Assembly: GCF_005503365.1 (NCBI RefSeq)
Contig: NZ_SCML01000015.1
Coordinates: forward strand, 1 to 64,000
Length of the DNA: 64,000 bases
Reading direction: 5' to 3'
Source of the DNA: Hydrogenophaga sp. 2FB
GTDB taxonomy: Bacteria; Pseudomonadota; Gammaproteobacteria; Burkholderiales; Burkholderiaceae_C
The notes below the pieces were generated by a model. It had not been told where the DNA came from. It worked only from the letters and a program-made list of their open reading frames with translations, and ran no database searches. Made by a program: the position numbers and the translations under genes. Each line of letters opens with the position of its first letter. Within the stretch, counting starts at the first letter, position 1. Positions 10,339 through 30,274 of this stretch are shown one piece after another.

Positions 10339-10372
10339 GGACGAATCGTACCCATTTCGAGCGTCCGGGCGG

Positions 10373-10401
10373 TTGAGTGCACAGGGCTTGCGCTGAACAA
10401 T
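10373..10401 (+). promoter_or_regulatory. Candidate sigma-70 promoter of the FAD monooxygenase–Bug–sulfatase operon
   Basis: TTGAGT at 10373–10378, a 17-base spacer and AACAAT at 10396–10401, each matching four of six consensus positions. It lies in the 92-base divergent region between the AraC regulator and the FAD monooxygenase, 30 bases before the monooxygenase ATG (CAGGAG ribosome site at about 10418–10423). Weak boxes fit an activator-dependent promoter. Prediction by eye only. Confidence 0.35.
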
Positions 10402-10430
10402 GCGCAGATCGTCAACGCAGGAGCAAACCC

Positions 10431-11570: not shown

Positions 11571-11606
11571 ACACCCCACCGATCACCACATCAACAGGAG
11601 ACCACC

Positions 11607-12593
11607 ATGACCGCCTTCCACAAGCGCACCTTCACCCTCGGCCTGCTCGGCACGCTGCTCGCAGCCGCCGCGCCCTTCGCGATGGCGCAAGCCTTCCCCG
11701 GCAAGCCCATCACCATCGTCGTGCCCTTCCCGCCCGGCGGTGGCCCAGACCTCGCCGCGCGCGTGCTGGCCGAGAAGCTCGCGCCCAAGCTCGGCCAAGC
11801 CGTGGTGGTGGACAACCGCCCTGGCGCCGGCGCGCTGCTCGGCGCGGGCATGGTGGCTCGCTCGGCCGCCGACGGCCACACCATCCTGCTCACGCCCAAC
11901 ACCATGGTGATCTCGCCCCACGTGCTGCCGGCCGGCGCGGGCAGCGGCCTGGACGTGCACAAGGACCTGGTGCCGGTGATCTCGCCCGCCACCACGCCAA
12001 TGGTGCTGGTGGCCAACCCGACCTTGGGCGTGACCACGCTCAAAGCTGCGCTGGACGCGGCGAAGAAGTCGCCCGGCCTGCCCTACGGCAGCCCCGGCAA
12101 CGGTTCGCCCATGCACTTCGCTGGCGAGATGCTCAAGCGCGCCGCGAACGTCGACCTGATGCACGTGCCCTACCGCGGTGTCGGCCCCTCGATCACGGCA
12201 GCGCTCAGCGGCGAAGTCAAGCTGCTGTTTACCGGCCTGGGGGGCGCCGTGCCACACATCAAGAGCGGCAAGCTCGTGCCGCTCGCGCTGACGGAGAAGA
12301 AGCGCTCGCCGCTGCTGCCCGACGTGCCCACCGCCACCGAGCAAGGCATTGCAGGCGTTGAGGTCAACGCCTGGTACGGCGTGTTCGTGCCCACGGGCAC
12401 GCCGGCCGCCGTGGTCACGCGCCTGAACAAGGAGTTCAACGACGCGCTGCAGCTGCCCGACGTGCGCGAGAAGCTTGCCGGCGCCGGCCTGGACATCCTC
12501 GGTGGTTCGCCGCAAGTGCTGGCCGATTTCATGAAGGCCGACAACGAGCGCTACGGCAGGCTCGCCAAGGAACTCAACATCAAGGCCGATTGA
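11607..12593 (+). CDS. Bug-family (TctC-like) substrate-binding protein
   Basis: 328 residues with a signal peptide ending at AMAQ (about residue 28). Family landmarks follow: ITIVVPFPPGGGPDLAAR, VVVDNRPGAGALLGAG, LLTPNTMVISPHVL, PYGSPGNGSPMHFAGE and KLVPLALTEKKRSPLLPDVPT. It would bind a small organic ligand in the periplasm. It lies between the FAD monooxygenase (36 bases) and the second sulfatase (13 bases) and is co-directional with both. No TctA or TctB is nearby, so it must rely on membrane subunits elsewhere or act as a sensor. Confidence 0.9.
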   Translation: MTAFHKRTFTLGLLGTLLAAAAPFAMAQAFPGKPITIVVPFPPGGGPDLAARVLAEKLAPKLGQAVVVDNRPGAGALLGAGMVARSAADGHTILLTPNTMVISPHVLPAGAGSGLDVHKDLVPVISPATTPMVLVANPTLGVTTLKAALDAAKKSPGLPYGSPGNGSPMHFAGEMLKRAANVDLMHVPYRGVGPSITAALSGEVKLLFTGLGGAVPHIKSGKLVPLALTEKKRSPLLPDVPTATEQGIAGVEVNAWYGVFVPTGTPAAVVTRLNKEFNDALQLPDVREKLAGAGLDILGGSPQVLADFMKADNERYGRLAKELNIKAD

Positions 12594-12606
12594 TCTGACG
12601 GAGAGC

Positions 12607-14199
12607 ATGGTGATGACCAGCAAGCGCCCCAACTTCCTGCTGTTCATCACCGACCAGCACCGCGCCGACCACCTCGGCTGCTACGGCAACACCGAGGTGC
12701 GCACGCCGCACATCGACGCGCTGGCTCAACAAGGCTGCCGCTTCGATCACTTCCACGTCGCCACGCCGATCTGCCAGCCCAACCGGGCCTCGCTCATGAC
12801 GGGGCGCTTGCCGAGCGTGCACGGCCTGCAGATGAACGGACGTGAGCTCTCGCTGGGCGAGCACACCTTCGTCGAGACGCTGCGCGAAGCCGGCTACCAG
12901 ACCGGCCTGGTCGGCAAATGCCACCTGCAGAACATCACCACCATTCCAGCGCTCTGGCCCAGGCCCGAGCAGCGACTGCCGCACGATGCGCTGACCGCCT
13001 TCCCGGGACGCTACGGCCAGGAAGTGTGGAAACGCTGGGAAGACGACCCGAGCTTCGAGCTGGACCTGCCCTACTACGGCTTTGAACAGGTGCGTCTGAC
13101 CATCGGCCACGCCGACGAACAGCACGGCCACTGGCGGCGCTGGCTGCGCGAGCAGACGCCCGAGGCCGATCGGCTCATCGGCCCGGACAACGCCATCCCC
13201 ACGCCCGGCCTGCACCTGGCCGCCCTGCGCCAGGCCTGGCGCACGCGCGTGCCCGAAGAGCTCTACCCCACGGCCTACATCGCCCAGCAGACCGGCGACA
13301 TGCTGGCGCGCATGGCCAGCGAAGACCGACCCTTCTTCGTGCAGTGCTCGTTCCCCGACCCGCACCACCCCTTCACGCCACCGGGCCGTTACTGGGACAT
13401 GTTCCGGCCAGAAGACGTGTCGTTGCCGGCCTCGTTCAACGCCGAGCTCATCGACCCGCCGCCCCCCATCGTCTTTCTGCGCGAGCAGCGGCGCGGCAAC
13501 CCGGCGTTCCGGCCTGGCTACGGCAGCTTCGCCAGCTCGGAGCAGGAAGTGCGCGAAGCGCTGGCGCTGAACCATGGCAGCCTCGCGCACATCGACCACA
13601 GCATCGGCCGCGTGATGGACCGGCTGTGCGAACTCGGGCTGGACCAGAACACCGTGGTGATGTTCACCAGCGACCATGGCGACTTGCTGGGCGAGCGCGG
13701 CCTGATGTTCAAGGGCGGCCTGCACTACCCGGCCCTCACGCGCGTGCCCTTCATCTGGCGCGATGGCGCGCAAGACAGCGCAACCCGTGTGAGCGACGCC
13801 CTGTCACAGACCATCGACATCCCGGCCACCGTGCTCGAACGCGCGGGCCTGCAACCCAGCAACGGCATGCAGGGCGCTTCCCTGCTCCCGGTGATGGCAG
13901 GCGACGGTGCCGCCGCTGTGCGCGAGCACCTGCTGATCGAAGAAGAAAGCCAACGCAGCGACTTCGGCATGGACCGGCGCGTGCGCATGCGCACGCTGCG
14001 CGACCACCGGTACCGCCTGACGGTGTACGACGGTCAGCCCTGGGGCGAGCTGATCGACCTGCAGGCCGACCCCCTGGAACTGCGCAATCTCTGGGACGAT
14101 GCGGCCTCTCTGCCATTGCGGCGCGAGCTGATGGAACGCCTGGCGCGGGCCATGCTCTCCACGGCGGACAACAGCCCGTATCCGGGCGCGGCGGCGTAA
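12607..14199 (+). CDS. Sulfatase (type I, formylglycine-dependent)
   Basis: 530 residues. It opens with RPNFLLFITDQHRADHLGCYGN, where Asp16 is an expected metal ligand, followed by the sulfatase signature C56-Q-P-N-R60. The metal-binding segment FTSDHGDLLGERGLMFKGG is conserved. It differs strongly from the 772-residue enzyme at 935–3253 and lacks its C-terminal extension, so the two belong to different sulfatase subfamilies. No signal peptide is visible, indicating cytoplasmic action. Start: ATG at 12607 after GGAGAGC; ATG at 12613 is an alternative. Last gene of the monooxygenase–Bug–sulfatase operon, with a strong terminator 105 bases downstream. Confidence 0.88.
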   Translation: MVMTSKRPNFLLFITDQHRADHLGCYGNTEVRTPHIDALAQQGCRFDHFHVATPICQPNRASLMTGRLPSVHGLQMNGRELSLGEHTFVETLREAGYQTGLVGKCHLQNITTIPALWPRPEQRLPHDALTAFPGRYGQEVWKRWEDDPSFELDLPYYGFEQVRLTIGHADEQHGHWRRWLREQTPEADRLIGPDNAIPTPGLHLAALRQAWRTRVPEELYPTAYIAQQTGDMLARMASEDRPFFVQCSFPDPHHPFTPPGRYWDMFRPEDVSLPASFNAELIDPPPPIVFLREQRRGNPAFRPGYGSFASSEQEVREALALNHGSLAHIDHSIGRVMDRLCELGLDQNTVVMFTSDHGDLLGERGLMFKGGLHYPALTRVPFIWRDGAQDSATRVSDALSQTIDIPATVLERAGLQPSNGMQGASLLPVMAGDGAAAVREHLLIEEESQRSDFGMDRRVRMRTLRDHRYRLTVYDGQPWGELIDLQADPLELRNLWDDAASLPLRRELMERLARAMLSTADNSPYPGAAA

Positions 14200-14350: not shown

Positions 14351-15493
14351 TTAGCGGCAGTCGTTGGGAAGCGTCTGGTTCGACAGCGCGGACGAGATGA
14401 AGCGGAGCGAATCCGCACTGGAGGCCATGATCAGCGAGCCGTGATCCTGGCCGGGATATTCCTTGTACTGGATGCGCGCACCCTTGGCGCACAAGGCCCC
14501 CATCATCTGCCGCGTCGTGGGTGGCGTAACCGTGGTTTGGTCCTTCTCGGCTTGTGCGATGAACAGCGGCACCTGCAGCTTGAGCTGAGCGGGATCCTGA
14601 GCAGCGAAGAACTTCGCCATCTTCTCGAAGTCCGGGCCCTTCTTCAGGTACTGCCCGGGCTGCAGCACAGGCATGCCAAACAAGCCACCAATGCAGGTGG
14701 ACTTCGCTGCGTCGATCTGGGATTTCATCGCCGGGTTCGTGAGCTTGTCCAGATCGATGCTCGGGTCCGCCACCTTCGCGGCCAACGCCGTGATCGCCAC
14801 GAAAGGTTGGGCGCCCGCCGATACGGGTTGGCCGTCGGCCACATCGTTCAGGAACTTCAGCACACCGGGCCCGGTGGGGGCGAGCGCAACGGCCGCCTTC
14901 AACGGATAGGACGGTGTGCGCTCCTTCATCGAAGCCACCCAGATGGCCGCGCCCCCGCCCTGGCTGTGTCCGGCGGCGATCCATTCGTTGCTCAGCTGGA
15001 TGGGCAGGGCGTGCGCGGCAGTGACCAGATCGGCCATCGCATAGGCGTTGCTGCGGCCTTCCAGATCGGGTCGCCCTGCGAATGCACCCCAGCCCTCATA
15101 GTCGGTGCGCAGCACGGCGTAACCCTGCTTCAACAGCACGTTCTGGAACTCCAGCCGCGATGGTGCTGCCGCCAGGGAAGGTGCGCATTGCGGCGCCACA
15201 CCGGTGGTGCCCGTGCCCCAGCTCACAACCGGGTAGCCGCCGGCAGGAGGCGGTGTTTTCGGCAGATCGATCAAGCCCTGGACCACGGTGTTCTGGCCCG
15301 CGTGCGAGGTGGAGATGTAAGACACCAGCCAGCGCTGCGATGACTCTGAAAGCAGCGACCGGGTTTGCGGTTGCACGTTCACCACGTGGCCGGGAGCCAG
15401 TTGGGCGCCTGGAATGGCAGAGGTGCTGGTACACGCAGCGAGGGCGGACAAACCGCCAAGGGAGAGCACCAGAACGTGACGCCGGACAAACAT
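14351..15493 (-). CDS. Secretory-lipase-like alpha/beta hydrolase, predicted lipoprotein
   Basis: 380 residues. The N-terminus is a lipoprotein signal: basic residues, a hydrophobic core, and lipobox LAAC with Cys21 as the lipidation site. The catalytic nucleophile is Ser177 in GHSQGG; the acid is probably the Asp in FIAQAEKDQTTV and the histidine the one in YPGQDHGSL. The overall pattern resembles the secretory lipase (LIP) family, so it would hydrolyse esters or lipids at the cell envelope. AAAGGAA precedes the ATG by about 7 bases. It is separated from the molybdenum-hydroxylase operon by 196 bases containing a perfect palindrome (15541–15558), so it probably has its own promoter. Confidence 0.8.
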   Translation of the reverse strand: MFVRRHVLVLSLGGLSALAACTSTSAIPGAQLAPGHVVNVQPQTRSLLSESSQRWLVSYISTSHAGQNTVVQGLIDLPKTPPPAGGYPVVSWGTGTTGVAPQCAPSLAAAPSRLEFQNVLLKQGYAVLRTDYEGWGAFAGRPDLEGRSNAYAMADLVTAAHALPIQLSNEWIAAGHSQGGGAAIWVASMKERTPSYPLKAAVALAPTGPGVLKFLNDVADGQPVSAGAQPFVAITALAAKVADPSIDLDKLTNPAMKSQIDAAKSTCIGGLFGMPVLQPGQYLKKGPDFEKMAKFFAAQDPAQLKLQVPLFIAQAEKDQTTVTPPTTRQMMGALCAKGARIQYKEYPGQDHGSLIMASSADSLRFISSALSNQTLPNDCR

Positions 15494-15540: not shown

Positions 15541-15558
15541 TGTTTTATTGATAAAACA
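15541..15558. promoter_or_regulatory. Candidate operator palindrome upstream of the lipase gene
   Basis: TGTTTTATTGATAAAACA: two perfect 8-base arms (TGTTTTAT and ATAAAACA) with a 2-base spacer, 47 bases before the lipase start. This AT-rich perfect palindrome stands out in a GC-rich background and sits where a promoter is expected. TetR- or GntR-type dimer binding would fit; the regulator is unknown. Confidence 0.5.
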
Positions 15559-15689
15559 ACGGTTCGCATAGGAACCACCCCAATGGTATGGATGGGCGAT
15601 GAATGCCCAAATGGGGAGATTCCCTGTGCAGAAATTCCAAGGAAGAAACAGGGCCGCTCGCCCGCAAACTCAGGCCGTCGACCTGCGTG

Positions 15690-16451
15690 CTACACCAGCG
15701 TGCGCAGCCAGGCCGCGCAGTCCTGCGAAGCCTGCACCGGCCAGTGCACGGTGATGGTGGTGTCGCCGCGGCGGACTTCCACGCGGATGTCCTGGCCCGT
15801 GGCGGCAGACGGGCCGCCCAGCAGGCGCGCCCAGAAGCCTGTGCGCTGTGTGACACGCGCTGGCACGGCTGGCGGTGTGGGTCCGCCCTGCGCCGCTGTC
15901 GGCTGCTGTGGCGCCGCCGGGGCAGGCACCTCGACCGGTGGGGCCGTGGGCACTGAAGCCGGCGCCACCACTTCGACGGCGACCCCAGCGGGAGCCGCCA
16001 CCGAAGCCCCACCCAAACGCGCCGCCGCGTTCACCCCGAACTCATCCCACATGCGATCGGCCTTGGTCTTCATCACCCCCAGACCAAACGTGCCCATGCG
16101 CCCGAGCACATCCACCTTGACCTTCATGCGCAGCTCCGTGCCACCACCCTCGCGTTCTTGCAGCCACATCTCGCTGGTCTGCTTGAGCGAGCTGGCCACG
16201 GAGGCGTCTTCGCCCGTGCCTTCGGCGCGCAGGTAGCGCGGTTCGTCGCGTTCGACGATGCGGGTCTTGAGCTTGAAGCGCGCACTGATGAAGGCGATCT
16301 TCACCTTCATCACGGCGACGTACTCGTCGTCGCTGATCACGTCGATGGATTCCATGCCGGGCACGCAAGCCCCCATGGCGTTCGGGTCGAGCAGCAGGGC
16401 CCAGACACGCGCAGGCGGCGCGTCCAGCATCAGGGTTTTTTCAATTTCCAC
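15690..16451 (-). CDS. CoxG-like (SRPBCC superfamily) protein with C-terminal extension
   Basis: 253 residues. Residues 1–150 match the CoxG/START-like fold found beside molybdenum hydroxylases (opening MEIEKTLMLDAPPARVWALLLDP, then ACVPGMESI). After about residue 150 come an Ala/Pro/Val-rich linker and a small C-terminal domain ending in a tryptophan-containing helix. CoxG proteins are thought to help membrane anchoring or maturation of the hydroxylase; the exact role here is unknown. The start overlaps the end of the 2Fe-2S subunit gene by 11 bases, so they are co-translated. Confidence 0.8.
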   Translation of the reverse strand: MEIEKTLMLDAPPARVWALLLDPNAMGACVPGMESIDVISDDEYVAVMKVKIAFISARFKLKTRIVERDEPRYLRAEGTGEDASVASSLKQTSEMWLQEREGGGTELRMKVKVDVLGRMGTFGLGVMKTKADRMWDEFGVNAAARLGGASVAAPAGVAVEVVAPASVPTAPPVEVPAPAAPQQPTAAQGGPTPPAVPARVTQRTGFWARLLGGPSAATGQDIRVEVRRGDTTITVHWPVQASQDCAAWLRTLV

Positions 16452-16917
16452 GCATCTTCTCCGCAGCGGTCAGGATGGATTCGACGATCTGGGTGTAGCC
16501 GGTGCAGCGGCACAGGTTGCCGTTGAGGCCATGGCGCACTTCTTCTTCGCTGGGCGACGGGTTGTTCGCCAGCATCGCGCACGAGGTCATGAGAAAGCCC
16601 GGCGTGCAGTAGCCGCATTGCAGGCCGCCGCATTGCATGAAGCTCTCCTGCAAAGGGTGCAGTGGTTCGCCCTGCGACAGGCCTTCGACGGTGGTGATGG
16701 CGCGGCCGTTGTGTTGCACGGCCAGGCTCAGGCAGGACTTCACGACCTGCCCGTCGACCAGCACCGAGCAGGCGCCGCAGATGCCGGTTTCGCAACCGCG
16801 TTTGGTGCCGGTGAGGTGCAGGTCGTCGCGCAGAAAGTCGGACAGCAGGCGCCGCGCGGGCACGGTGCTTTGTACGGCCTCGCCGTTGACGGTCAGGGTG
16901 ATCGGGTGTTGGCTCAT
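16441..16917 (-). CDS. Molybdenum hydroxylase small subunit, (2Fe-2S)-binding (CoxS/XdhC-like)
   Basis: 158 residues, the normal length. The plant-type ferredoxin cluster is ligated by Cys42, Cys47, Cys50 and Cys62 (motif CETGICGAC). The second cluster lies in the helical domain with C101-GYC104 and C136-RC138. It passes electrons from the molybdopterin subunit to the FAD subunit. It begins 3 bases after the FAD-subunit stop and overlaps CoxG-like by 11 bases. All cluster ligands are present, so it should be functional. Confidence 0.95.
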   Translation of the reverse strand: MSQHPITLTVNGEAVQSTVPARRLLSDFLRDDLHLTGTKRGCETGICGACSVLVDGQVVKSCLSLAVQHNGRAITTVEGLSQGEPLHPLQESFMQCGGLQCGYCTPGFLMTSCAMLANNPSPSEEEVRHGLNGNLCRCTGYTQIVESILTAAEKMRGN

Positions 16918-16920
16918 GGC

Positions 16921-17787
16921 TTACTCCTGGGGCAGGCCGAACAGGCCGGCGATGTTGCGTCGGGCGACCACTTGCACCATGTCGCGGCGGAAGTCGGCGT
17001 CGCCGCGCGCGTCGGACACGGGTTCGATGTCGGCGGCGACGATGGCCGCGGCTTCGGCCGCCACGTCGGCCGTCACGGTCTTGCCGGCCAGGTAGGCTTC
17101 GGCACGCGGCAGGCGCAAGGGGATCGGGGTGGAAGCACCGACGGCGATGCGCGCTTCGGTGCACACCGCGCCCTGGCGCCGTGTGACGAACGCCACGCTA
17201 ACCAGTGGCCGGTGCTCGGCCGCCGTGCGCAGGAAGCGCGCGTACTGGCCGCTCGCATCGCTCGGCATGGCGGGCACGCGGATCTCGCTGAGCAACTCGT
17301 CGGGCTCGAGCGCGGTGGTGTAGTAGTCCACCAGAAATTCGGCCATGGACAAGACACGTTCGCCACGCTGGCTCGCCAGCACCACCTGTGCGTTGAGCGC
17401 CATCAAACAACCCGGTGGATCGGTGGACGGATCGGCGTAGCAAAGGTTGCCGCCGATCGTGCCCTGGTTGCGCACCTGCGGGTTGGCCACGCGCGAGGCC
17501 ATGCTGGCCAACATGGGCCAGCGCTCGCGCACCAGGGGCGAGGCCGCGACTTCGGCGTGCAGCGTGAGCGCGCCGATGCGCAGGCCACCGCGCTCGTCCA
17601 ATGCGATGCCGCGCAAGGTACCGATCCGGCCCAGCGACACCAGGTGCGAAGGCGTGAGCATGCGCTGGCGCATGCCAAGCATGAGCGCGGTGCCGCCCGC
17701 GATGACGCGGCATTCATCGCCCAGGTCGGCCAACATGCGGCTGGCTTCGGCCACGCTCGCGGGTTCGAGGAAATCGAAATCAAGCAT
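16921..17787 (-). CDS. Molybdenum hydroxylase medium subunit, FAD-binding (CoxM-like)
   Basis: 288 residues. The FAD-contacting motifs AGGTALM near residue 30 and GTIGGNLCYADPSTDPPG near residue 105 are conserved. It accepts electrons from the 2Fe-2S subunit and passes them to NAD+ or a respiratory acceptor. The ATG at 17787 (MLDFDFLEPASV) is the true start; it lies inside the last 8 bases of the large-subunit gene, and an extension further upstream would only read through that gene in the wrong frame. Confidence 0.93.
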   Translation of the reverse strand: MLDFDFLEPASVAEASRMLADLGDECRVIAGGTALMLGMRQRMLTPSHLVSLGRIGTLRGIALDERGGLRIGALTLHAEVAASPLVRERWPMLASMASRVANPQVRNQGTIGGNLCYADPSTDPPGCLMALNAQVVLASQRGERVLSMAEFLVDYYTTALEPDELLSEIRVPAMPSDASGQYARFLRTAAEHRPLVSVAFVTRRQGAVCTEARIAVGASTPIPLRLPRAEAYLAGKTVTADVAAEAAAIVAADIEPVSDARGDADFRRDMVQVVARRNIAGLFGLPQE

Positions 17788-20065
17788 GGGTGGTCTCCCG
17801 CAGGGCGCGCAGCGCGGCCAGCACTTTCTGCGGCGTGATGGGCAGGTCGGTGATGCGCACGCCCACGGCGTCGTACACCGCATTCGCGATCGCCGGTGCG
17901 CCCGGCAGGATGGCGGTTTCGCTCGCACCCTTGGCGCCGTGCGGGCCATTGGGTTCGTTCGATTCGACCAGGCCGCCACGCAGCATGGGCACGGCGTCTG
18001 CCGTGGGCATGTTGTAGTCGGCGAAGTTGCCGTTCATGATGCGGCCGCCTTCCACTTGCAGTTGTTCGTAGAGCGTCCAGCCCATGGCCTGCACGGTCGC
18101 GCCGTTGGTCTGGCCGTGGACTGCCAGCGGGTTCAGGGCCTTGCCGCAGTCGTCGCTGACGAAGCTGTCGAGCACCGTGACCTGGCCGGTCTGCGTGTCC
18201 ACTTCCACTTCGACGGCCTGCGCCGCGAACGAATAGGCGGGCGCGATGTTGCCGTAGACGTTGGCGTCGTGCATCTGCGTCTGGGCGTCCCAACTGCCAG
18301 AGACCTGGATGCCTTCGCCGCCGTGGCGCCAGATGTGCTGGCGGGCCAGCTCGGCGAGCGTGCGCTTCTGCTGGGGATCGTCGCGCACCTGCACTGCGCC
18401 TGCCACGAACTCTAGTTGGTCTGTGGCCACGCCGAGCATCTGCGCGGCCACGGCCAGCAGCTTGTCCTGCGCGGCGCGCGCCGCGACGATGGCCGCGTTG
18501 CCCGCTGCCATGGTCACGCGCGAGGCGAGTGTGCCGATGCAGAATGGCGCGGTGTCGGTGTCGGGCGCGAGCACGTGCACATGCGCCAACGGCAGCTGGA
18601 GTTCGTGCGCCACGATCTGGCTCAGCATGGTCATCGCGCCCTGCCCCATGTCGCCTTCGCTGGATTGCACCACCACGCGGCCGTCTTCGTTGACCTTGAT
18701 CACCACGGTGGAGCCGTCCCAGTTGCCGATGGTGCGGTTGCCGCTCACGTGCATGGCCGCGGCCATGCCCACGCCACGCCGCTTCGCGCCGTGTTGCGCA
18801 GGCCGTGCGCGCTTCTGTTTCCAGCCAATGGCTTCGGTGCACTGGGCGATGCATTCGAGCAAACCGGTGCTGCCGATCTCCCAACCGTGGATGGACGTTT
18901 CGCCGCGCCCGATGGCGTTGCGTTTGTGGATGTCCACCGGGTCGAGCCCGAGCTGCTCGGCCATGGTGTGGATGTGGCTGTTGAGCGCGAACAGCATCTG
19001 CGTGCCGCCAAAGCCACGAAACGCCCCGTGCGGCGGCGTGTGGGTGTAGGCCATGGTGGCGTGCGAGCGCACGTTCTTCAGCCGGTGCATGTTGTCGCTG
19101 CGCATGGCGCTGACGTGCATGACCTCGGGCGACAGGCCGCAGTAGGCGCCGCAGTCGGCCACGATGCGCACGTCCTTGGCGACGATGAGGCCGTCGCGCG
19201 TCATGCCCAGCTTGAGCGTGATGCGCTCGGGCACGCTGGAGCATGCGGCCTGGAAGTCTTCCAGCCGGTTGTTGACGAGGCGCACCGCGCGCCCGGTCTT
19301 GAGCGCGAGCAGCCCAGCCACCAGCTGGTTGTCGTCCTCGATGATCTTTCCGCCGAAGCCACCACCCACCGTGGCAGCCACCACGCGCACGCGCGAGACC
19401 GGCAACTCCAGCGCCGCGGCCAGGCGCGCGCGGGCCAGGAACACCGACTGCGTCGAGGTCCAGACCTGCAGACGGCCGTCCGGGTCGAGCGATGCCACGC
19501 TGGCCATGGGTTCGAGGTAGCCGGGGTACTGCGCGTGCGTGGTGTAAGTGGCCTCAAAGATCAGGTCCGCCTGCGCGAAGCCGTCTTCGATGTTGCCGCG
19601 CTCGAATTGAATCTGATGCGCCACGTTGCCGCGCCCGGGGTGCACGCCGGGTGCGTCGTCGTCCAGCGCTTCCTCGGGCGTGAGGATCGCGGGCAGTTCC
19701 TCGTACTCGATGTGGATCAGGTCCAGCGCATCGCGCGCGATCTCTTCGGTGGTGGCCGCCACGGCCGCCACCTCTTCGCCCGCGAAGCGCACCACGCCCT
19801 CGGCCAGGATGCGGCGCTCTTTCTGGTGCACGCCCCACAACGCGCGCGGCGCGTCGGCGCCGGTGAGGACCGCCTTGACGCCGGGCAAGGCCAACGCGGC
19901 CGAGGTGTCCACGCTGACGATGCGCGCGTGCGGATACGGGCTGCGCAGGATCTTGCCGTGCAGCATGCCGGCGACCTTGATGTCGCCCGCGTACACCGCG
20001 CGGCCCAGCACCTTGGCGCGCGCGTTGACCTGTGGCGTGTCCCGGCCCAGGGTGGATGCGCTCAT
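17780..20065 (-). CDS. Molybdenum hydroxylase large subunit, molybdopterin-binding (xanthine dehydrogenase family)
   Basis: 761 residues, typical of the family. Visible landmarks are the N-terminal AVYAGDIKVAGMLHGKILRSPYPHARI, the GGGFGGK segment, the active-site loop GAFRGFGG with Arg350, and the C-terminal KGASETA with the likely catalytic Glu. The AYxCSFR loop of true CO dehydrogenase is absent, so this is a hydroxylase of an aromatic, N-heterocyclic or related substrate and not CODH. The ATG at 20065 starts 2 bases after the stop of the Bug gene. Ordered Bug–large–medium–small–CoxG, the operon couples uptake to hydroxylation. Confidence 0.92.
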   Translation of the reverse strand: MSASTLGRDTPQVNARAKVLGRAVYAGDIKVAGMLHGKILRSPYPHARIVSVDTSAALALPGVKAVLTGADAPRALWGVHQKERRILAEGVVRFAGEEVAAVAATTEEIARDALDLIHIEYEELPAILTPEEALDDDAPGVHPGRGNVAHQIQFERGNIEDGFAQADLIFEATYTTHAQYPGYLEPMASVASLDPDGRLQVWTSTQSVFLARARLAAALELPVSRVRVVAATVGGGFGGKIIEDDNQLVAGLLALKTGRAVRLVNNRLEDFQAACSSVPERITLKLGMTRDGLIVAKDVRIVADCGAYCGLSPEVMHVSAMRSDNMHRLKNVRSHATMAYTHTPPHGAFRGFGGTQMLFALNSHIHTMAEQLGLDPVDIHKRNAIGRGETSIHGWEIGSTGLLECIAQCTEAIGWKQKRARPAQHGAKRRGVGMAAAMHVSGNRTIGNWDGSTVVIKVNEDGRVVVQSSEGDMGQGAMTMLSQIVAHELQLPLAHVHVLAPDTDTAPFCIGTLASRVTMAAGNAAIVAARAAQDKLLAVAAQMLGVATDQLEFVAGAVQVRDDPQQKRTLAELARQHIWRHGGEGIQVSGSWDAQTQMHDANVYGNIAPAYSFAAQAVEVEVDTQTGQVTVLDSFVSDDCGKALNPLAVHGQTNGATVQAMGWTLYEQLQVEGGRIMNGNFADYNMPTADAVPMLRGGLVESNEPNGPHGAKGASETAILPGAPAIANAVYDAVGVRITDLPITPQKVLAALRALRETTHA

Positions 20066-20067
20066 GG

Positions 20068-21048
20068 TCAGTCGGCCTGGATGTTCAGGTCTTTGATCAG
20101 CCGGGACAGGCGCGCGTGGTCGTCGGCGTTGATCTTGGCCAGCGCCTCGGGTTTGCCACCCACCGGACGCGAGCCGAAGGTGGCCATCTTCTCGACCACG
20201 TCGGGCATGCGCAGGATCTCGTTCAGGTGCTCGTTGAGCAGCTTGACCACGGCCGGCGGCGTGCCCTTGGGCGCGAAGATGCCGTTCCACGCGCCGAGCT
20301 TCACGTCCTTGTAGCCCTGCTCGGCCACCGTGCTCAGGTTCGGGATCAGCGGGCTGCGCTCGCCGTCGGTGAGCGCCACGGCCACCAGCTTGCCGCTCTT
20401 GAGGTGCTGCTCCACCACGCCCAGCGTGACGTAGCCCATGCTGACGCGGCCGGCGAGCATGTCGGGAATCATCGGGCCCACGCCACGGAACGGCACGTGC
20501 TGCACCTGGATGCCCGCCGCGCGGTTGAGCCACTCGGCCACGATGTGCATCGGCGAACCCGCGCCGGGGCTGGCGTAGGTGAGCGGCTTGCCCGCCTTGG
20601 CCTGCGCCACCACGTCGGCCACGCTCTTGATGCCGCTGTCCGGGTGCGTCACCAGCAGCACCGACTGCATCGCCGTCAGCGCGACCGGCTCGAAGCCATT
20701 GAGCACGTCGTAGGTGGCGTTGGGCGCGAGCTTGAGCACCATGGGTGCGGTGGTGAAGGGGTTGGGCGTGAACAGCAGCGTGTAGCCATCGGGCTTGGCG
20801 CGGCTGACGTAGGTGTTGCCCACCGTGCCGCCCGCGCCCGGCTTGTTCTCCACGATCACGGGCTGCTTGAGCCGCTGCGACAGCTTGTCGGCGAACAAGC
20901 GCGCCGTGGCGTCGGAATCGCCACCGGGCGGATAGGCCACCACCAGGCTGATGGTTTTGTCCGGGTAGGCCTGGGCGGCAGCGCCACCCGCAAACAAGGC
21001 CGTGGCCGCCAAGGCCAGAGCCATCCACTGTCGACGATCCGTTTTCAT
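20068..21048 (-). CDS. Bug-family (TctC-like) substrate-binding protein
   Basis: 326 residues. The signal peptide ends near GAAAQ (about residue 25), followed by ISLVVAYPPGGDSDATARLFADKL and KPGAGGTVGNTYVSRAKPDGYTLLFTPNPF, all family hallmarks. Start ATG at 21048 (MKTDRRQWM) follows AGGAG by 7 bases; longer in-frame starts lack this. It leads the molybdenum-hydroxylase operon, with only 2 bases to the large subunit, so its ligand is very probably the hydroxylase substrate or a close relative. Confidence 0.92.
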   Translation of the reverse strand: MKTDRRQWMALALAATALFAGGAAAQAYPDKTISLVVAYPPGGDSDATARLFADKLSQRLKQPVIVENKPGAGGTVGNTYVSRAKPDGYTLLFTPNPFTTAPMVLKLAPNATYDVLNGFEPVALTAMQSVLLVTHPDSGIKSVADVVAQAKAGKPLTYASPGAGSPMHIVAEWLNRAAGIQVQHVPFRGVGPMIPDMLAGRVSMGYVTLGVVEQHLKSGKLVAVALTDGERSPLIPNLSTVAEQGYKDVKLGAWNGIFAPKGTPPAVVKLLNEHLNEILRMPDVVEKMATFGSRPVGGKPEALAKINADDHARLSRLIKDLNIQAD

Positions 21049-21119: not shown

Positions 21120-21154
21120 GTTTCATATTGGAAACATAGGTTCACAACAGAAAC
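21120..21154. promoter_or_regulatory. Twin GTTTC-N6-GAAAC operator, molybdenum-hydroxylase operon
   Basis: A perfect GTTTC-N6-GAAAC palindrome at 21120–21135 and an imperfect copy (GGTTC-N6-GAAAC) at 21139–21154, with centres 19 bases apart. The pair begins at the predicted transcription start of the Bug/molybdenum-hydroxylase operon. The same pair, with the same spacing and placement, occurs upstream of the extradiol/Rieske operon at 25168–25202, which argues for a shared regulator. The binding protein is not identified. Confidence 0.6.
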
Positions 21155-21160
21155 GCATTC

Positions 21161-21189
21161 ATCGTATTCCTTCGTCGTTGACTGATCAA
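21161..21189 (-). promoter_or_regulatory. Candidate promoter of the molybdenum-hydroxylase operon
   Basis: Reading the minus strand: TTGATC at 21189–21184, a 17-base spacer, then TACGAT at 21166–21161; each box matches four of six sigma-70 positions. The -35 box lies within the palindrome 21175–21192, so a bound repressor would block polymerase. Predicted start of transcription is near 21154. Confidence 0.45.
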
Positions 21190-21192
21190 CGA
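21175..21192. promoter_or_regulatory. Palindromic operator 1 (TCGTTGA-N4-TCAACGA), likely MarR site
   Basis: Perfect 7-base arms TCGTTGA and TCAACGA with spacer CTGA. It overlaps the -35 box of the leftward molybdenum-hydroxylase promoter. A nearly identical palindrome lies 51 bases away (21226–21243) at the start of the MarR gene's own transcript. Size and symmetry fit MarR-family operators; assignment to the adjacent MarR protein is inference from position. Confidence 0.55.
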
Positions 21193-21218
21193 TGATTTCC
21201 CGATTTCTCACAACTTGT

Positions 21219-21243
21219 TACAATTTTGTTGATCGATCAACGA
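21219..21243 (+). promoter_or_regulatory. MarR-gene -10 box and palindromic operator 2
   Basis: TACAAT at 21219–21224 is a good -10 hexamer for rightward transcription; the -35 box is poor. Immediately downstream, TTGTTGA-N4-TCAACGA (21226–21243) repeats operator 1 with one mismatch and would cover the transcription start, consistent with autorepression by the MarR protein encoded from 21297. Confidence 0.5.
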
Positions 21244-21296
21244 CGAGATCGGGGCGCATCGTCGGCGAACGGGGTGGCTTCCACGAGAATGCCCGC

Positions 21297-21863
21297 ATGC
21301 CCGAACACAAGACCGCCAAGACCTCGCCCATCCAGCCGGCCCTGCCCCCGGAACCGGGCCTCGACACCAGCAACCCCTGGACCGATCTGCCGCCCGATGG
21401 CGCGGGCCTGGCCGTGCACGACTTCCTGACCACGATGTTCAGCCACACCAGCAATGCGCTGCGGCGTGCCATCACCCTGCCCTACGCCGACCGTTTCCAG
21501 CTCACGGTGTCGGAATGGCGCATCCTCTCGGTGCTGGCGCACGCGGGCTCACTGCCGTTTTCGGAACTGGTGGAACTCGCGGCCGCCGACAAGGCGCAGG
21601 TCAGCCGCGCACTGCGCCTGCTGGGGGACCGGGGTCTGGTGGAGATGCAGACGCCAGGCCCCAAGGGCCGCAAGGGGCTGATCTGCCTGATGACACAGGC
21701 CGGTCAGGCACTGTACGAGGAGATCATGCCGCTGGCACGGCGCAGCCAGGCGGAGATGATCCTCACGCTCAGCCGGGAAGAGCGCAGCACGCTCTACACC
21801 GTGCTGGGGAAACTGCGGCGCCAGTGTGGCGCGGGCGCCGCGGACGTTTCGATCGACGCTTAG
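21297..21863 (+). CDS. MarR-family transcriptional regulator
   Basis: 188 residues. The winged-helix core runs from about 45 to 160: FQLTVSEWRILSVLAHAGSLPFSELVELAAADKAQVSRALRLLGDRGLVEMQTP, followed by a wing rich in Gly/Lys and the dimerisation helices. The start at 21297 is preferred to an in-frame ATG 105 bases earlier, because that longer form would read through the operator region. It is divergent from the Bug/molybdenum-hydroxylase operon and tail-to-tail with the reductase gene, the two stop codons overlapping within 4 bases. It probably controls itself and the hydroxylase operon. Confidence 0.88.
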   Translation: MPEHKTAKTSPIQPALPPEPGLDTSNPWTDLPPDGAGLAVHDFLTTMFSHTSNALRRAITLPYADRFQLTVSEWRILSVLAHAGSLPFSELVELAAADKAQVSRALRLLGDRGLVEMQTPGPKGRKGLICLMTQAGQALYEEIMPLARRSQAEMILTLSREERSTLYTVLGKLRRQCGAGAADVSIDA

Positions 21864-22825
21864 ATATCGAGCACGAGCCGATCGCTCTTGCAGCCCGAGA
21901 CGCAGACCATCATGGCCTTGTTGGTCGCGCGCTCGGCGTCGGTCAACACCATGTCGCGGTGGTCGGGCACGCCTTCGAGCACGCGCGTTTCGCACGAGCC
22001 GCAGATGCCCTCTTCGCAGCTGAACGGCACGTCGGCGTTGATCTCGATCAGGCGCTTGTGCAGCGTGGTGTCGGGTGTCACCTCGAACATCTGGCCGCTG
22101 CGGCGCAGCTCGACGGTGAACGAGGTCTTCGCATCTTCCGCGGCCGCGACTTCCACAGCCGTGAAGCGTTCGATGTGCGCGTTCGTGTGGCCGAGCGCGG
22201 CGCAGGTCTTCTCGAAGTTGTCGAGCATCACGGCCGGGCCGCAGGCGTAGTAGTGCTCGCTGCCGGTGACGGGCCGCTTGCCCAGCAGCGCGGTCAGGTC
22301 CGGCGGGCCGCCCTTCTCGTCGTCGAAGTGCCAGGTGACGGGCACGCCGAGCGCCTCGATTTCGTCGACGAAGGCCGCGCTCTTGCGCGAGCGGGCGAAG
22401 TACAGGAACTCGAAGTTCTTGCCCAGGTCCTTCAGGCGGCGCGCCATGCACAGCACCGGCGTCACGCCAATGCCACCGGCCACCAGCACCGAGTGCGTGG
22501 CGTCTTCGTGCAAGGCAAAGAGGTTGCGCGGCTCGCTGATGGTGATGCGCATGCCCACGCGCAGCTGCTCGTGCACGCAGCGCGAGCCGCCGCGGCTGGC
22601 GCGGTCTTTCAACACGCCCACGACGTAGCGGTGGCGCTCGTGGCTGCTGTTGCACAGCGAGTAGCTGCGCACCATGCCGTTGGGCAGGTGCAGGTCGATG
22701 TGGGAGCCGGCGGCGAACGCGGGGAACACCACGTCGGGCGCGGGACGCAGGTCCACGCTGATGATGTCGTCGGCCTCGTAACGCAGTGTGTGGACCCAGG
22801 CCTGCAAAGTGTTGATCGTGCTCAT
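21860..22825 (-). CDS. PDR/VanB-type oxygenase reductase (FMN, NAD(P)H, 2Fe-2S)
   Basis: 321 residues with the phthalate dioxygenase reductase domain order: a flavin-binding barrel with RSYSLCNSS (about residue 50), an NAD(P)H domain with GGIGVTPVLCMARRL, and a C-terminal plant-type ferredoxin with motif CEEGICGSC plus a last Cys in VCVSGC. It delivers electrons to the Rieske oxygenase encoded 10 bases upstream. Complete and apparently intact. It is the last gene of the extradiol–small protein–Rieske–reductase operon. Confidence 0.93.
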   Translation of the reverse strand: MSTINTLQAWVHTLRYEADDIISVDLRPAPDVVFPAFAAGSHIDLHLPNGMVRSYSLCNSSHERHRYVVGVLKDRASRGGSRCVHEQLRVGMRITISEPRNLFALHEDATHSVLVAGGIGVTPVLCMARRLKDLGKNFEFLYFARSRKSAAFVDEIEALGVPVTWHFDDEKGGPPDLTALLGKRPVTGSEHYYACGPAVMLDNFEKTCAALGHTNAHIERFTAVEVAAAEDAKTSFTVELRRSGQMFEVTPDTTLHKRLIEINADVPFSCEEGICGSCETRVLEGVPDHRDMVLTDAERATNKAMMVCVSGCKSDRLVLDI

Positions 22826-22835
22826 CCCGCGATTC

Positions 22836-23864
22836 TCACACGGGCTTGTCGAGCTGGGCCTTGGCCAGGTTTCTCAGGTGGCGTCGCAGGCGCACGATAC
22901 CCATGTCGTGCGCGTACAGGTGCTCGCGCTTGTTGGCGTCGGGCTCCATGTTTTCCACGGCCACACGGTCTTGCTCGAGCACGTTCCAGTGGCGCTCTTC
23001 CAGGCGGTTCTTGTAGAGGAAGCGCCAGGTGTCGCGCTGCCAGCCGGTCACGCGGCGGCAACGCCAGTGGAAGACACCCGAGGTGCGGTTGCTGATGGGC
23101 GTGTAGCTGCCGATGATGGTGAAGTTGCCACCAGGGCCGCCGGTCTTGGGGTACGGAATTTCCAGGCGCATCACGTGGATGCCGGTGTCCATCCATTCGG
23201 TCCAGTCGAAGTTCACGCCGCGCTGGCCCTTCTTCTCGAAGCAGAAGCCGTTGGGGATGTCGCGGATCTGGAACTCGGCCTCGCTCGCGCCTTCGCTCAT
23301 GGTGTGCGACTGCTTGTGCAGGTACACGCCGTGCATCGGGTCCATCACGTTGTCGACCACGTAGCGGTAGTCGCCGCCCCACTCGGTGTAGCAGAGGAAG
23401 TTCGACCACTCGGGCGAAGTCAGTTCTTCCGGCAGTTGCAGCGGCGGCGCTTCGTCCAGGATCGGGTTGCTCGCGTTGTAGAGAAAGATCGCGCCGGCGG
23501 CTTCGGCGGCGTGGAACATGCGCGCGGGGCGCGAGCCCTCGAGCTTGCAGCCGGGGCTGCCGGGCACGCGGGTGACGGTGCCGTCGCAGCGCACTTCAAC
23601 GCCGTGGTACGGGCAGGCCAGGCGGTCGCCGAGGTTCACGCCGAGCGAGAGCGGCGCGCCGCGGTGCGGGCAGTGGTCTTCAAGCGCGTGCACCTGGCCG
23701 GCCTGGTCGCGCCAGAGCGCGATCTTGTAGCCCAGGCGGCGCAGCGAGATCGGGTCGTTCTTGACGAAACTGGACGGGCAGACCGGGAACCACAGGTCTT
23801 TGAGGCCGACTTCGAGGGCGGCGTCGACCGGGTCGAGCTGGACGTTGATGACAGAGGTATCCAT
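22836..23864 (-). CDS. Rieske non-heme iron oxygenase, alpha subunit (VanA/phthalate-oxygenase type)
   Basis: 342 residues. The Rieske cluster ligands are Cys65-x-His67 and Cys84-x2-His87 (CPHRG…CPYHG). The mononuclear iron site follows at D175…H178-x4-H183, with the bridging aspartate expected between subunits. The length and reductase type place it with the VanA/phthalate 4,5-dioxygenase group, which hydroxylates or O-demethylates aromatics. The product would be a diol or phenol suited to the extradiol dioxygenase of the same operon. Substrate unidentified. Confidence 0.92.
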   Translation of the reverse strand: MDTSVINVQLDPVDAALEVGLKDLWFPVCPSSFVKNDPISLRRLGYKIALWRDQAGQVHALEDHCPHRGAPLSLGVNLGDRLACPYHGVEVRCDGTVTRVPGSPGCKLEGSRPARMFHAAEAAGAIFLYNASNPILDEAPPLQLPEELTSPEWSNFLCYTEWGGDYRYVVDNVMDPMHGVYLHKQSHTMSEGASEAEFQIRDIPNGFCFEKKGQRGVNFDWTEWMDTGIHVMRLEIPYPKTGGPGGNFTIIGSYTPISNRTSGVFHWRCRRVTGWQRDTWRFLYKNRLEERHWNVLEQDRVAVENMEPDANKREHLYAHDMGIVRLRRHLRNLAKAQLDKPV

Positions 23865-23908
23865 GGACGTGTCTCCTGGCGGGTGGGGCTGTGTGTGTGG
23901 GGCGCGGT

Positions 23909-24133
23909 TCAGGCGCCGAGGCGGGCCATTTCCTGCTGGAAGGACGCTTCCGTCCAGCGCTGGCCATTGGGTCCGGAGGGGCCCGCGTCGTTGAGGTAGC
24001 CCACGACGCCTGCCAGGTCGTGGATGCCCTGCGCGTAGGCGCGCTCGATCGAGTCGCCCAACAGGCCTTCGTAGGACGTCGGCGGCGCGGTGCGCGTCTG
24101 GTGGGTTTCGTTGTACAGATCAGGGGTTCGCAT
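23909..24133 (-). CDS. Small conserved protein of Rieske oxygenase operon, unknown function
   Basis: 74 residues, no signal peptide or membrane segment. Two helices flank a Gly/Pro turn; the C-terminal half (QRWTEASFQQEMARLGA) looks like a small helical interaction module. I recall similar short proteins described as having a recombinase-like helix domain near Rieske oxygenases, but cannot verify it. It lies 18 bases after the extradiol gene and 44 bases before the oxygenase gene, with coding-like composition and a GGAG-type site before its ATG, so it is a real gene of the operon. It might assist the oxygenase; that is a guess. Confidence 0.65.
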   Translation of the reverse strand: MRTPDLYNETHQTRTAPPTSYEGLLGDSIERAYAQGIHDLAGVVGYLNDAGPSGPNGQRWTEASFQQEMARLGA

Positions 24134-24151
24134 GTCTTGTCTCCTTGATGA

Positions 24152-25126
24152 TCATTCCGTGGGCGGCTTGACCTTGTCGGTCATGAACTTGCCGGTGGGC
24201 GCGGCGGCGTTGATCTGGCGGCGCGTATTGCCGTCGATGCCGCCCTTGATGGCCCATTCGGCGAACAGGGTCGGGCCGGGCGTGAATTCGCGCGGCTCCC
24301 AGTCGGCGGTGAGCTCGTCTTCGTCGGTGTAGTACTCCACCAGCGCACCCGCGGGGCTTTCGAAATACCAGAACATGGCCGATGAAATCGGGTGGCGGCC
24401 GGGGCCGAGTTCGGTGGTCCAGCCGCTGCGCGACATGTGCATGCCGCCGCCCACCACTTCGTGCAGATCGCGCACCGAGAAGGCCACGTGGTTCAGGCCC
24501 TTGCGCGGCTCGGGCGGCTGCAGCAGGAACAGATCGTGGTGGCCGCCTTCGGGTGCGCAGCGCAGGAACAGGCCGCGGTTGGGGTAGCTGTCGGAGACGG
24601 CGAAATCGAGGTTCTCGGTATAGAACGCGCCGGTGGCCTTGAGGTCGGTCACGAAGAACACCACGTGGCCCACTTCGACCGGCGTGGCGCGGTCGTAGGC
24701 CGGGCTACGCTGGTTCACGCGCTTGCGCTCGCTCCAGGTGTTGACGATGGCGCTTTCGATCTTCACGGCGCGTTTTTTCGTGAGCTGCAGGCGCACCGCC
24801 AGGCCGTTGGGATCGGTGCAGCCGATGCGGCCGTCGGCATCGACGAAGCCGGGTTGGCTCTGCAGGCGGCTGCGGTACAGCGCCAGGCTCTCGGGCGTGT
24901 CCACGCCCCAGACCACTTCGCGCAGCGTCGGGTCGGGCTCGACGCCAGCGGGCAGGCCGGGCTTGTCGGAATGGGCCACGACCACGCGGCAACCGTTGAG
25001 CGATTCGAACACCAGCTCTTGAGCGGCCTCGCTCACCAGCGTGAGGCCCCAGTCCAGGAAGAACTGCCGGCAACGCGGCAGATCGGCAGCGCCGTAAGTG
25101 ATTTGATCAATGCCCAACACGCTCAT
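24152..25126 (-). CDS. Two-domain extradiol ring-cleavage dioxygenase (VOC superfamily, type I)
   Basis: 324 residues forming two VOC modules (about 1–120 and 148–275). The catalytic C-terminal module has His154 (VGHVVFF), His213 (LNHVAFSV) and Glu264 (LVEYYTDE), which match the Fe(II) ligands of BphC-type extradiol dioxygenases in order and spacing. His197 and His245 match its acid–base histidines, so the active site looks complete. It should cleave a catechol-like ring meta to the hydroxyls. ATG at 25126 has AAGGAA upstream. First gene of the operon with the Rieske oxygenase and reductase. The ring substrate is unknown. Confidence 0.82.
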   Translation of the reverse strand: MSVLGIDQITYGAADLPRCRQFFLDWGLTLVSEAAQELVFESLNGCRVVVAHSDKPGLPAGVEPDPTLREVVWGVDTPESLALYRSRLQSQPGFVDADGRIGCTDPNGLAVRLQLTKKRAVKIESAIVNTWSERKRVNQRSPAYDRATPVEVGHVVFFVTDLKATGAFYTENLDFAVSDSYPNRGLFLRCAPEGGHHDLFLLQPPEPRKGLNHVAFSVRDLHEVVGGGMHMSRSGWTTELGPGRHPISSAMFWYFESPAGALVEYYTDEDELTADWEPREFTPGPTLFAEWAIKGGIDGNTRRQINAAAPTGKFMTDKVKPPTE

Positions 25127-25167
25127 GCTGTCTTCCTTGAAGTGCCTGGCCTTCGTGTCGGCCAAGC

Positions 25168-25202
25168 GTTTCTTTAGTAAATCCGTGTTTCCTACTTGAA
25201 AC
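25168..25202. promoter_or_regulatory. Twin GTTTC-N6-GAAAC operator, extradiol/Rieske operon
   Basis: A perfect GTTTC-N6-GAAAC palindrome at 25187–25202 and a degenerate copy (GTTTC-N6-AAATC) at 25168–25183, with centres 19 bases apart. It starts 7 bases downstream of the predicted -10 box of the extradiol operon. It matches the pair at 21120–21154 in sequence, spacing and position, with perfect and imperfect copies in swapped order. Confidence 0.6.
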
Positions 25203-25209
25203 GACTTGA

Positions 25210-25238
25210 ATTTTACCGATAATTCTCTCCAGTGGGAA
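25210..25238 (-). promoter_or_regulatory. Candidate promoter of the extradiol/Rieske operon
   Basis: On the minus strand: TTCCCA (25238–25233), a 17-base spacer, and TAAAAT (25215–25210). The -10 box matches five of six consensus positions. Transcription would begin near 25203, directly at the edge of the twin operator. It lies in the 144-base gap after the EthD-like gene. Confidence 0.5.
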
Positions 25239-25270
25239 GGGACTCGCAGAGTAATTTGCTCGGCTATGTT

Positions 25271-29410: not shown

Positions 29411-29522
29411 GGGTTCTTTCAAAAATCAGGTGGGTGAAAGCCCAGCGCCTCGCCGCCCAGGAAACCCCGCGCCCCGTGCCCGCCCTGGGGTGCGATAATT
29501 TCCTCGTTTGCGAAAACCTCTG

Positions 29523-29572
29523 GATTTCATGAAATATACAGATTTCATTAAATCTATTGATTCGTATAAATC
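29523..29572. promoter_or_regulatory. Three phased palindromes (18-bp period), GntR operator array
   Basis: GATTTCATGAAATA (29523–29536), GATTTCATTAAATC (29541–29554) and GATTCGTATAAATC (29559–29572) are three related palindromes whose centres are exactly 18 bases apart. The third contains TATAAA, a likely -10 box of the GntR gene that starts at 29585, so binding would give autorepression. A weaker TTCATGAA lies across the start codon at 29582–29589. The array lies between divergent porin and GntR genes and is the likely control region of both. Confidence 0.6.
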
Positions 29573-29584
29573 TCTATTTACTTC

Positions 29585-30274
29585 ATGAATCAGTTCGTTG
29601 TAGAAGACAGCCCCGTGGATGCGGGTTCGCGAACCGAGCGCGCCTACCAGCGCCTGCGACAGGAAATCCTGCTGGGCGAGTTGGCGGCGAACGAGCGTCT
29701 GCGTGTCGCCGACCTGGAAGCGCGCTTCCATCTGGGTCTGACGCCGATCCGTGAGGCGCTCGCCCGCCTGGCCAGTGAAGGGCTGGTGTCCATGGAAGCC
29801 AACCGCGGCGCCCGTGTGCTGGAGGTTTCGCCCACGGAACTGGCGGATCTGATGAAGACGCGCCGTGAAATCGAACGCCTTTGCCTGAGCGAATCCATCC
29901 GCCGCGGCGATTCACGCTGGGAGGCAGACGTCATCGCCGCCTTGCACGTCCTGGGCCGCACGCCATTGCCCGATGGCAGCGACAGCGCCACGAACCTGGA
30001 ATGGGAGGCGCACCACCGCCGCTTTCATGCGGCACTGGTGAGCGCCTGCGGTTCGGAATGGCTGTTGCGGTTCTGGAACCAGCTGATGGACCATTCGCAG
30101 CGCTACCGCAAGGTCCGGCTCAAGGGACAGTTGATGGCGCGCGACGTGCAAGCGGACCACCAGGCGATCCTCGAGGCGGTGCTGCGCAGGGACGCTGACG
30201 CAGCGGTCGCCTTGATGGAGCGCCATCTGCTCGACACGGAGAAGGCGGCCCACGCCGCCATGCTGCAGCGCTAG
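29585..30274 (+). CDS. GntR-family regulator, FadR subgroup (FCD domain)
   Basis: 229 residues. The winged helix is at about 18–85 (TERAYQRLRQEILLGELAANERLRVADLEARFHLGLTPIREALARLASEGLV). The C-terminal FCD ligand domain (about 95–220) has the histidines typical of its metal site (HHRRFHAAL, DHQAILEAV and MERHL). Such proteins repress catabolic operons until a carboxylate effector binds. ATG at 29585 has no ribosome site and a very short leader. Its phased operators and divergent porin operon mark it as that operon's regulator. Confidence 0.88.
   Translation: MNQFVVEDSPVDAGSRTERAYQRLRQEILLGELAANERLRVADLEARFHLGLTPIREALARLASEGLVSMEANRGARVLEVSPTELADLMKTRREIERLCLSESIRRGDSRWEADVIAALHVLGRTPLPDGSDSATNLEWEAHHRRFHAALVSACGSEWLLRFWNQLMDHSQRYRKVRLKGQLMARDVQADHQAILEAVLRRDADAAVALMERHLLDTEKAAHAAMLQR

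Follow-up and report, generated by a model that had tools for sequence, protein, structure and literature searches.

Twin 35-bp operators of a probable IclR-family repressor at promoters of a candidate aromatic-degradation regulon in Hydrogenophaga sp. 2FB

Suvorova and Gelfand (2021; PMC8222616) have described IclR motifs of two groups, sites composed of three boxes, and tandem sites lying 18–22 nucleotides (nt) apart in 94 orthologous groups. They related the tandem sites, whose spacing is mainly 19–21 nt, to tetramer binding. In Paracoccus denitrificans, a tetrameric DNA-binding form and a potential palindromic site have been suggested for BhcR (PMC11323563). Literature searches aimed at the regulon described here found no paper on it and brought up just the general IclR study PMC8222616. 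The present analysis concerns a stretch of 64,000 nt from Hydrogenophaga sp. 2FB (contig NZ_SCML01000015.1, positions 1–64,000; the window), in which pairs of the palindrome GTTTC-N6-GAAAC stand 19 nt apart upstream of predicted catabolic genes. Comparative sequence analysis indicates that a single IclR-family repressor acting in trans very probably uses these twin sites as its 35-bp operators; its gene lies on another contig of the same genome (G000:C1:2793–3686, minus strand). The repressor would join four units, namely a lipase-like gene, a Bug/molybdenum-hydroxylase operon, an extradiol/Rieske/reductase operon and an ABC-transporter operon that contains iclR.

A first-pass annotation of the window had pointed to perfect copies of GTTTC-N6-GAAAC at 21120–21135 and 25187–25202, each with a degenerate partner exactly 19 nt away. 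A check of the sequence agrees, the partners lying at 21139–21154 (one mismatch) and 25168–25183 (two mismatches). The twin operators thus delimited, listed like all those below without a strand, occupy 21120–21154 at the Bug/molybdenum-hydroxylase operon and 25168–25202 at the extradiol/Rieske operon. Both twin sites of that annotation proved real, but two was too low a count, as the regulon holds at least four promoters. The genome-wide scan for 19-nt pairs that it had proposed, made with GTTTCN6GAAACN3GTTTCN6GAAAC and up to three mismatches, returned three places in 6.31 Mb and none for a reversed control. These are the two operators above and a further one at C62:1175–1209, preceding a gene for an ABC-transporter ATPase (family named from the orthologue in H. 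palleronii, G012). Weight matrices located another twin operator in the window at 15542–15576; a secretory-lipase-like hydrolase gene (14351–15493, minus strand) starts 48 bases downstream of it. Its halves are likewise 19 nt apart, and the mismatch scan missed it because each half carries two mismatches. With a symmetric matrix built from 17 genus sites, from which it was absent, it scores 32.1 bits. A matrix of 12 sites from other genera, themselves gathered using the genus matrix, ranks the three twin sites of the window at the top with 36.0, 33.7 and 32.6 bits (15542–15576 being second with 33.7), and the best non-site reaches 12.2 bits.

Single copies of the 16-bp motif are a poor guide. 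With up to two mismatches, 17 occur in the window against 12.8 expected, and 13 of 100 shuffles also reach 17; counting single sites was therefore rejected as uninformative, their frequency being close to chance. The perfect motif has eight copies per 6.31 Mb. Many such copies within coding regions had been named in advance as a sign against shared control, and three of the eight do lie in long reading frames (L005, L007 and L008), but the tandem form is rare. At up to three mismatches, the 6.31-Mb scan found none of the other six perfect copies to have a partner 19 nt away. The perfect copies L003 and L006 are near genes that resemble GntR and HxlR regulators by eye, for which no family search was made. 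The near-chance frequency of single motifs would suit an explanation by chance similarity or a repeat element; the tandem arrangement, the 19-nt spacing, the genome-wide rarity and the co-occurrence with iclR given below speak against it and leave it a negligible probability.

Comparison of the promoter regions across related strains, also proposed by the first-pass annotation, revealed that the pair is conserved in orthologous clusters. Each of the eight genus genomes that have the extradiol gene carries a site ahead of it, in G006 with another called gene in between. The Bug operator is present in each of the four genus genomes carrying the neighboring MarR gene (the present genome, G027, G043 and G051), and the operator of the iclR-containing operon in 9/9 genus genomes with the IclR orthologue. 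In G063, the first gene behind the last operator encodes an SDR and not the transporter ATPase. In G006 (C66:133396) and G043 (C34:4145), it was found by a sequence-only model, R1, alone; we infer its placement from an IclR gene 5 kb away in the former and by elimination in the latter. Across three sets of orthologous promoters, the pair has been preserved as one 35-bp unit. When the orthologous promoter stretches are stacked, the operator is the best-kept block by eye and adjoins a -10-like hexamer. R1 was also run on 15 genus genomes that lack the IclR (up to 150 candidates scored in each); 13 gave no match at E<=0.5 and the other two gave partial matches with E of 0.14 and 0.24.

The candidate regulator (locus L155) belongs to the IclR family, scoring 57.1 bits with PF09339 (HTH_IclR; cut-off 22) and 126.7 bits with PF01614 (IclR_C; cut-off 24). 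The predicted operon behind the operator at C62 comprises genes for an ABC transporter, an SDR, a cupin, a hydrolase, iclR, a thiamine pyrophosphate (TPP) enzyme, aspartate dehydrogenase and aldehyde dehydrogenase. In G012, this operon contains the IclR-family gene, and the present genome has the same gene order. Of 34 IclR-like stretches that the genome has at E<=0.001, the top match to the G012 protein, with 87% identity, lies at C1:2796–3686. Among 67 genus genomes, the tandem (up to three mismatches) occurs in 10 and the IclR orthologue (E<=1e-90) in nine, all nine falling within the ten site-bearing genomes (Fisher p=2.3e-10). G007 is the sole site-bearing genus genome without the IclR; its match is G+C-rich, unlike the others, and chance-like. 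In a family sample of 399 genomes, the tandem was found in 27, the IclR (E<=1e-60) in 36 and both in 18 (p=4e-15), and co-occurrence persists when the own genus is excluded (p=1.3e-14). In 14 of the 17 genomes from outside the genus that have both, the site lies 2.2–6.4 kb from the IclR gene. In addition, the genus matrix found 62 matches of at least 18 bits in 57 loci, some of them training sites, against 0–1 for 20 permuted palindromic matrices; 44 of the 62 are in 40 later-fetched loci (other genera and the own contig C1), outside the training sequences. A site is present in 55 of 80 named loci around IclR relatives, and none of 100 permuted matrices finds one in more than three loci. Site-bearing records come from Limnohabitans, Curvibacter, Polaromonas, Rhodoferax, Ramlibacter, Variovorax, Pandoraea, Herbaspirillum and Collimonas. 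All but one of the 69 named-locus sites of at least 22 bits lie outside or at the ends of reading frames as called with a crude G+C-based caller, which was used for the fetched and the named loci.

Several observations weigh against assigning the sites to this one repressor. The genome has 34 IclR-like stretches, and the orthologue is picked out by co-occurrence and linkage only. Its link to the operator at C62 is taken from colinearity with G012, because an NMT1 gene is split, one part at the end of C62 and the other at the end of C1, and about 46 residues in between are absent; the two contigs appear to be neighbors. In the family sample, 9/27 site-bearing genomes are without the IclR, and 18 of the 36 IclR-bearing genomes are without a site of up to three mismatches. 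A matrix match of at least 18 bits near the IclR gene was found in 14 of these 18, and four (L139, L140, L147 and L150) still have none near the gene. Twenty-five of the 80 named loci are without a site, many but not all of them being short or truncated, and many of the 80 are related to one another or come from the same genomes as the G set. Relatives from Caballeronia and B. stagnalis (about 47–52% IclR identity) score at most 7 bits. Plasmid relatives carry a similar gene set under generic gene names, and a B. stagnalis stretch is without annotation. The lipase operator has no orthologous promoter for comparison, because the gene had no relative among the genes called in 17 fetched loci. 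The two matrix tests are only partly independent, because the 12 sites were collected with the genus matrix. R1 found just four places in the 6.31-Mb genome at E<=10 among the 150 of 311 candidates scored, and its training set held all four; the informative part of that scan is therefore that no fifth place appeared among the scored candidates. Each R1 genome scan scored up to 150 first-look candidates, which counts on the same side.

The local regulators MarR and GntR were among those that the first-pass annotation had suggested for footprinting, and probably neither is the factor. The MarR-family gene (21297–21863, plus strand; Pfam) neighbors the Bug operon and points away from it, so its product might bind the twin sites and coordinate both operons. 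Its orthologue at E<=1e-30 occurs in 4/67 genus genomes (G000, G027, G043 and G051), whereas IclR-linked twin sites occur in nine, so the gene does not accompany the site wherever it is found. It has better candidate sites in the palindrome GTTGATCNNTCAAC, of which 6.31 Mb contain just two perfect copies, each located in the intergenic region between bug and marR: GTTGATCAGTCAAC at 21177–21190, overlapping the Bug -35, and GTTGATCGATCAAC at 21228–21241, between the Bug promoter and marR (neither with a strand). Similar palindromes occur twice each in G027 and G043 and once in G051. Rare in the genus and equipped with its own palindrome pair, MarR was rejected as owner of the twin sites, a role that is extremely unlikely. 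We infer that MarR binds GTTGATCNNTCAAC, and because these palindromes lie there, the Bug operon appears to have two layers of control, the local MarR and the shared IclR.

It is very unlikely that the sites belong to the GntR/FCD regulator (29585–30274, plus strand), to another factor such as the HTH_62 protein of the extradiol/Rieske operon, or to a different IclR paralogue. In favor, less than 5 kb separates the GntR gene from the extradiol operator, the HTH_62 protein is co-encoded with a Rieske oxygenase both in this genome and on two Caballeronia plasmids, and IclR paralogues are many in the genome. Against this, no gene called in the 17 fetched loci was a relative of GntR (no genome-wide search was made for it, for the HTH_62 protein or for the other paralogues), G023 has the IclR and the site yet no extradiol gene, and in other genera the sites go with this IclR gene. 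The A/T-rich dyads ATTTCATGAAAT and TTTCATTAAAT lie directly ahead of the GntR/FCD gene (window 29520–29590) and are possibly its own operator.

Symmetrized base counts from 32 sites give GTTTC-N6-GAAWC-RNY-GWTTC-N6-GAAAC, in which each of the four boxes is well conserved. Two GTTTC-N6-GAAAC arms placed 19 nt apart leave a central palindrome, GAAWC-RNY-GWTTC. The geometry is strict. Among 364 copies of the 16-bp motif (up to two mismatches) in the 80 named loci, 23 pairs are at exactly 19 nt, and any other distance up to 60 nt has at most four; five Markov controls gave no pair at 19 nt, and the count does not depend on a matrix. When arm and center spacings were varied in the same loci, the N6/N3 combination gave 46 matches and each of 15 others 0–1. 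The sites, this spacing, their conservation, their co-occurrence with the IclR gene and their placement at predicted promoters are observations on the DNA itself. That one dimeric regulator binds twice per promoter, as the first-pass annotation proposed, is supported by the conserved unit, by the co-tracking of the IclR and by the fit to published tandem-dimer sites, although on these grounds it stays a prediction. The 35-bp element might further be a single four-box operator, in which one tetramer reads both published box arrangements together, the inner group-2 pair and the outer group-1-like pairs with their shortened N6 spacer; this is offered tentatively. If true, the four-box operator would be a fixed natural test of two proposed modes of IclR dimerization, and a short-spacer class of operator kept across several Burkholderiales genera.

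The promoters next to the operators were predicted by eye, those in the window on the minus strand. The Bug operon has a -10 TACGAT (21161–21166) and a candidate -35 TTGATC (21184–21189) with a 17-nt spacer, the extradiol operon a -10 TAAAAT (25210–25215) and a weak -35 TTCCCA (25233–25238), and the lipase-like gene a -10 TACCAT (15583–15588) and a -35 TTGGGC (15605–15610) with a 16-nt spacer. Across the orthologous promoters, the Bug -10 is TACGAT in three of four and TACCAT in the fourth. The extradiol -10 is TAAAAT or TAGAAT in six of eight, with TATAAT and TACGAT in the remaining two. The gap of 6–7 bases between the -10 and the site pair, reported by the first-pass annotation, was recovered by eye as 6 nt for Bug and 7 nt for extradiol; the predicted gap is 6 nt at the lipase promoter and 1 nt at the ABC promoter. 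Because the operator starts 1–7 nt past the predicted -10, the expected transcription start would lie beneath a bound protein, and therefore repression is favored, with release by a pathway compound. A tetramer of two IclR dimers would sit immediately past the -10 on a single face of the DNA and keep transcription from starting until a metabolite of the pathway weakens its binding. The operon containing iclR carries the same operator, so the regulator would control itself; the circuit would be self-regulated because iclR lies in the fourth unit. Binding by the IclR, its tetramer state, the repression and the inducer are predictions. The IclR could instead bind and activate in the manner of PcaU and PobR, since PcaR/PcaU/PobR (TIGR02431) is the NCBIfam subfamily that it matches best, although the score of 178.3 bits falls below the cut-off of 284.75. 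A position 1–7 nt downstream of the -10 at all four promoters, predicted by eye as they are, is awkward for an activator, and activation is unlikely. An imperfect palindrome, GAGCAAATTACTCTGC, lies upstream of the extradiol promoter (window 25246–25261, minus strand). It is kept in six of the eight orthologous extradiol promoters, with a single change in one of the six, and looks like the site of a second factor.

The genes behind the Bug and extradiol operators are all on the minus strand. The Bug operon begins with a Bug/TctC solute-binding protein (20068–21048), followed by the large subunit of a molybdenum hydroxylase (17780–20068, ends approximate), its FAD subunit (16921–17979) and 2Fe-2S subunit (16441–16917), and a CoxG-like protein (15690–16451). 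The extradiol operon begins with a type I extradiol dioxygenase of the glyoxalase fold (24152–25126), followed by the HTH_62 ("recombinase-like HTH") protein of 74 amino acids (23909–24133), a Rieske oxygenase with a VanA-type C-terminal domain (22836–23864) and a reductase with a C-terminal 2Fe-2S domain (PDR/VanB-like; 21860–22825). The HTH_62 gene has the extradiol gene on one side and the Rieske gene on the other, and in the two Caballeronia plasmids it also adjoins the Rieske gene. Our guess from the gene families is that the regulon serves one aromatic, possibly nitrogen-containing, substrate. Behind this guess are the molybdenum hydroxylase, the Rieske oxygenase and its reductase, the extradiol dioxygenase, the alpha/beta hydrolase and the TPP enzyme, together with aspartate dehydrogenase, aldehyde dehydrogenase and the Bug and ABC uptake proteins. 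At 9349–14199 of the window, an AraC regulator gene is divergent from a row of FAD monooxygenase, Bug and sulfatase genes. Several of the fetched loci also carry relatives of these genes, and a scan of the window with the genus matrix found no twin operator of at least 12 bits there.

The proposed regulon ties an unassigned regulator, an operator and a scattered set of genes into one testable unit. It suggests which genes serve one aromatic pathway, its operator recurs in several Burkholderiales genera, and it offers a compact operator for studying how IclR tetramers read four boxes.

Among the systems known for comparison, BhcR (NF045644) is the second-best NCBIfam match, with 150.7 bits against a cut-off of 350. 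It acts in a different pathway, and its potential site is upstream of the -35 of bhcA (PMC11323563). The central GAAWC-RNY-GWTTC resembles the KdgR motif GAAACGNCGTTTC (PMC8222616) from the KdgR/E. coli IclR type of operator; the present operator differs in having outer arms, and the protein reaches neither the KdgR nor the IclR cut-off. PcaU and PobR share with the present system alternating boxes, an IclR-family protein and a role in aromatic catabolism, and theirs is the nearest NCBIfam subfamily by score (PMC8222616). The present operator differs from theirs in four boxes instead of three, a TTTC instead of a TTCG core and a position downstream of the predicted -10. In relation to the motif groups of PMC8222616, the 16-bp arms (GTT-10-AAC) differ from the group 1 form GKTYCRYW3-4RYGRAMC of 17–18 bp, whose subgroups have 11 or 12 in place of 10, and N7 and N8 arms give 0–1 matches here. 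The central pair also fits group 2, so that four boxes alternate; the core TGRAACAN1-2TGTTYCA appears in its N1 form, TGAAACA-N-TGTTTCA (positions 11–25 of the 32 sites), as the commonest bases of the symmetrized counts, from which single sites differ at some positions. The present orthologous group may be among the 181 of that study. Judged by its sequence, the operator fits the IclR tandem kind described there, with GTTTC/GAAAC boxes, palindrome centers 19 nt apart (within the published 18–22 nt) and a tetramer reading. Site and IclR gene are linked, physically or phylogenetically, in nine of nine genus genomes and within 7 kb in 14/17 genomes of other genera. As in the IclR regulons of that study, aromatic catabolism is combined with transport, and the regulator would control its own and adjacent operons.

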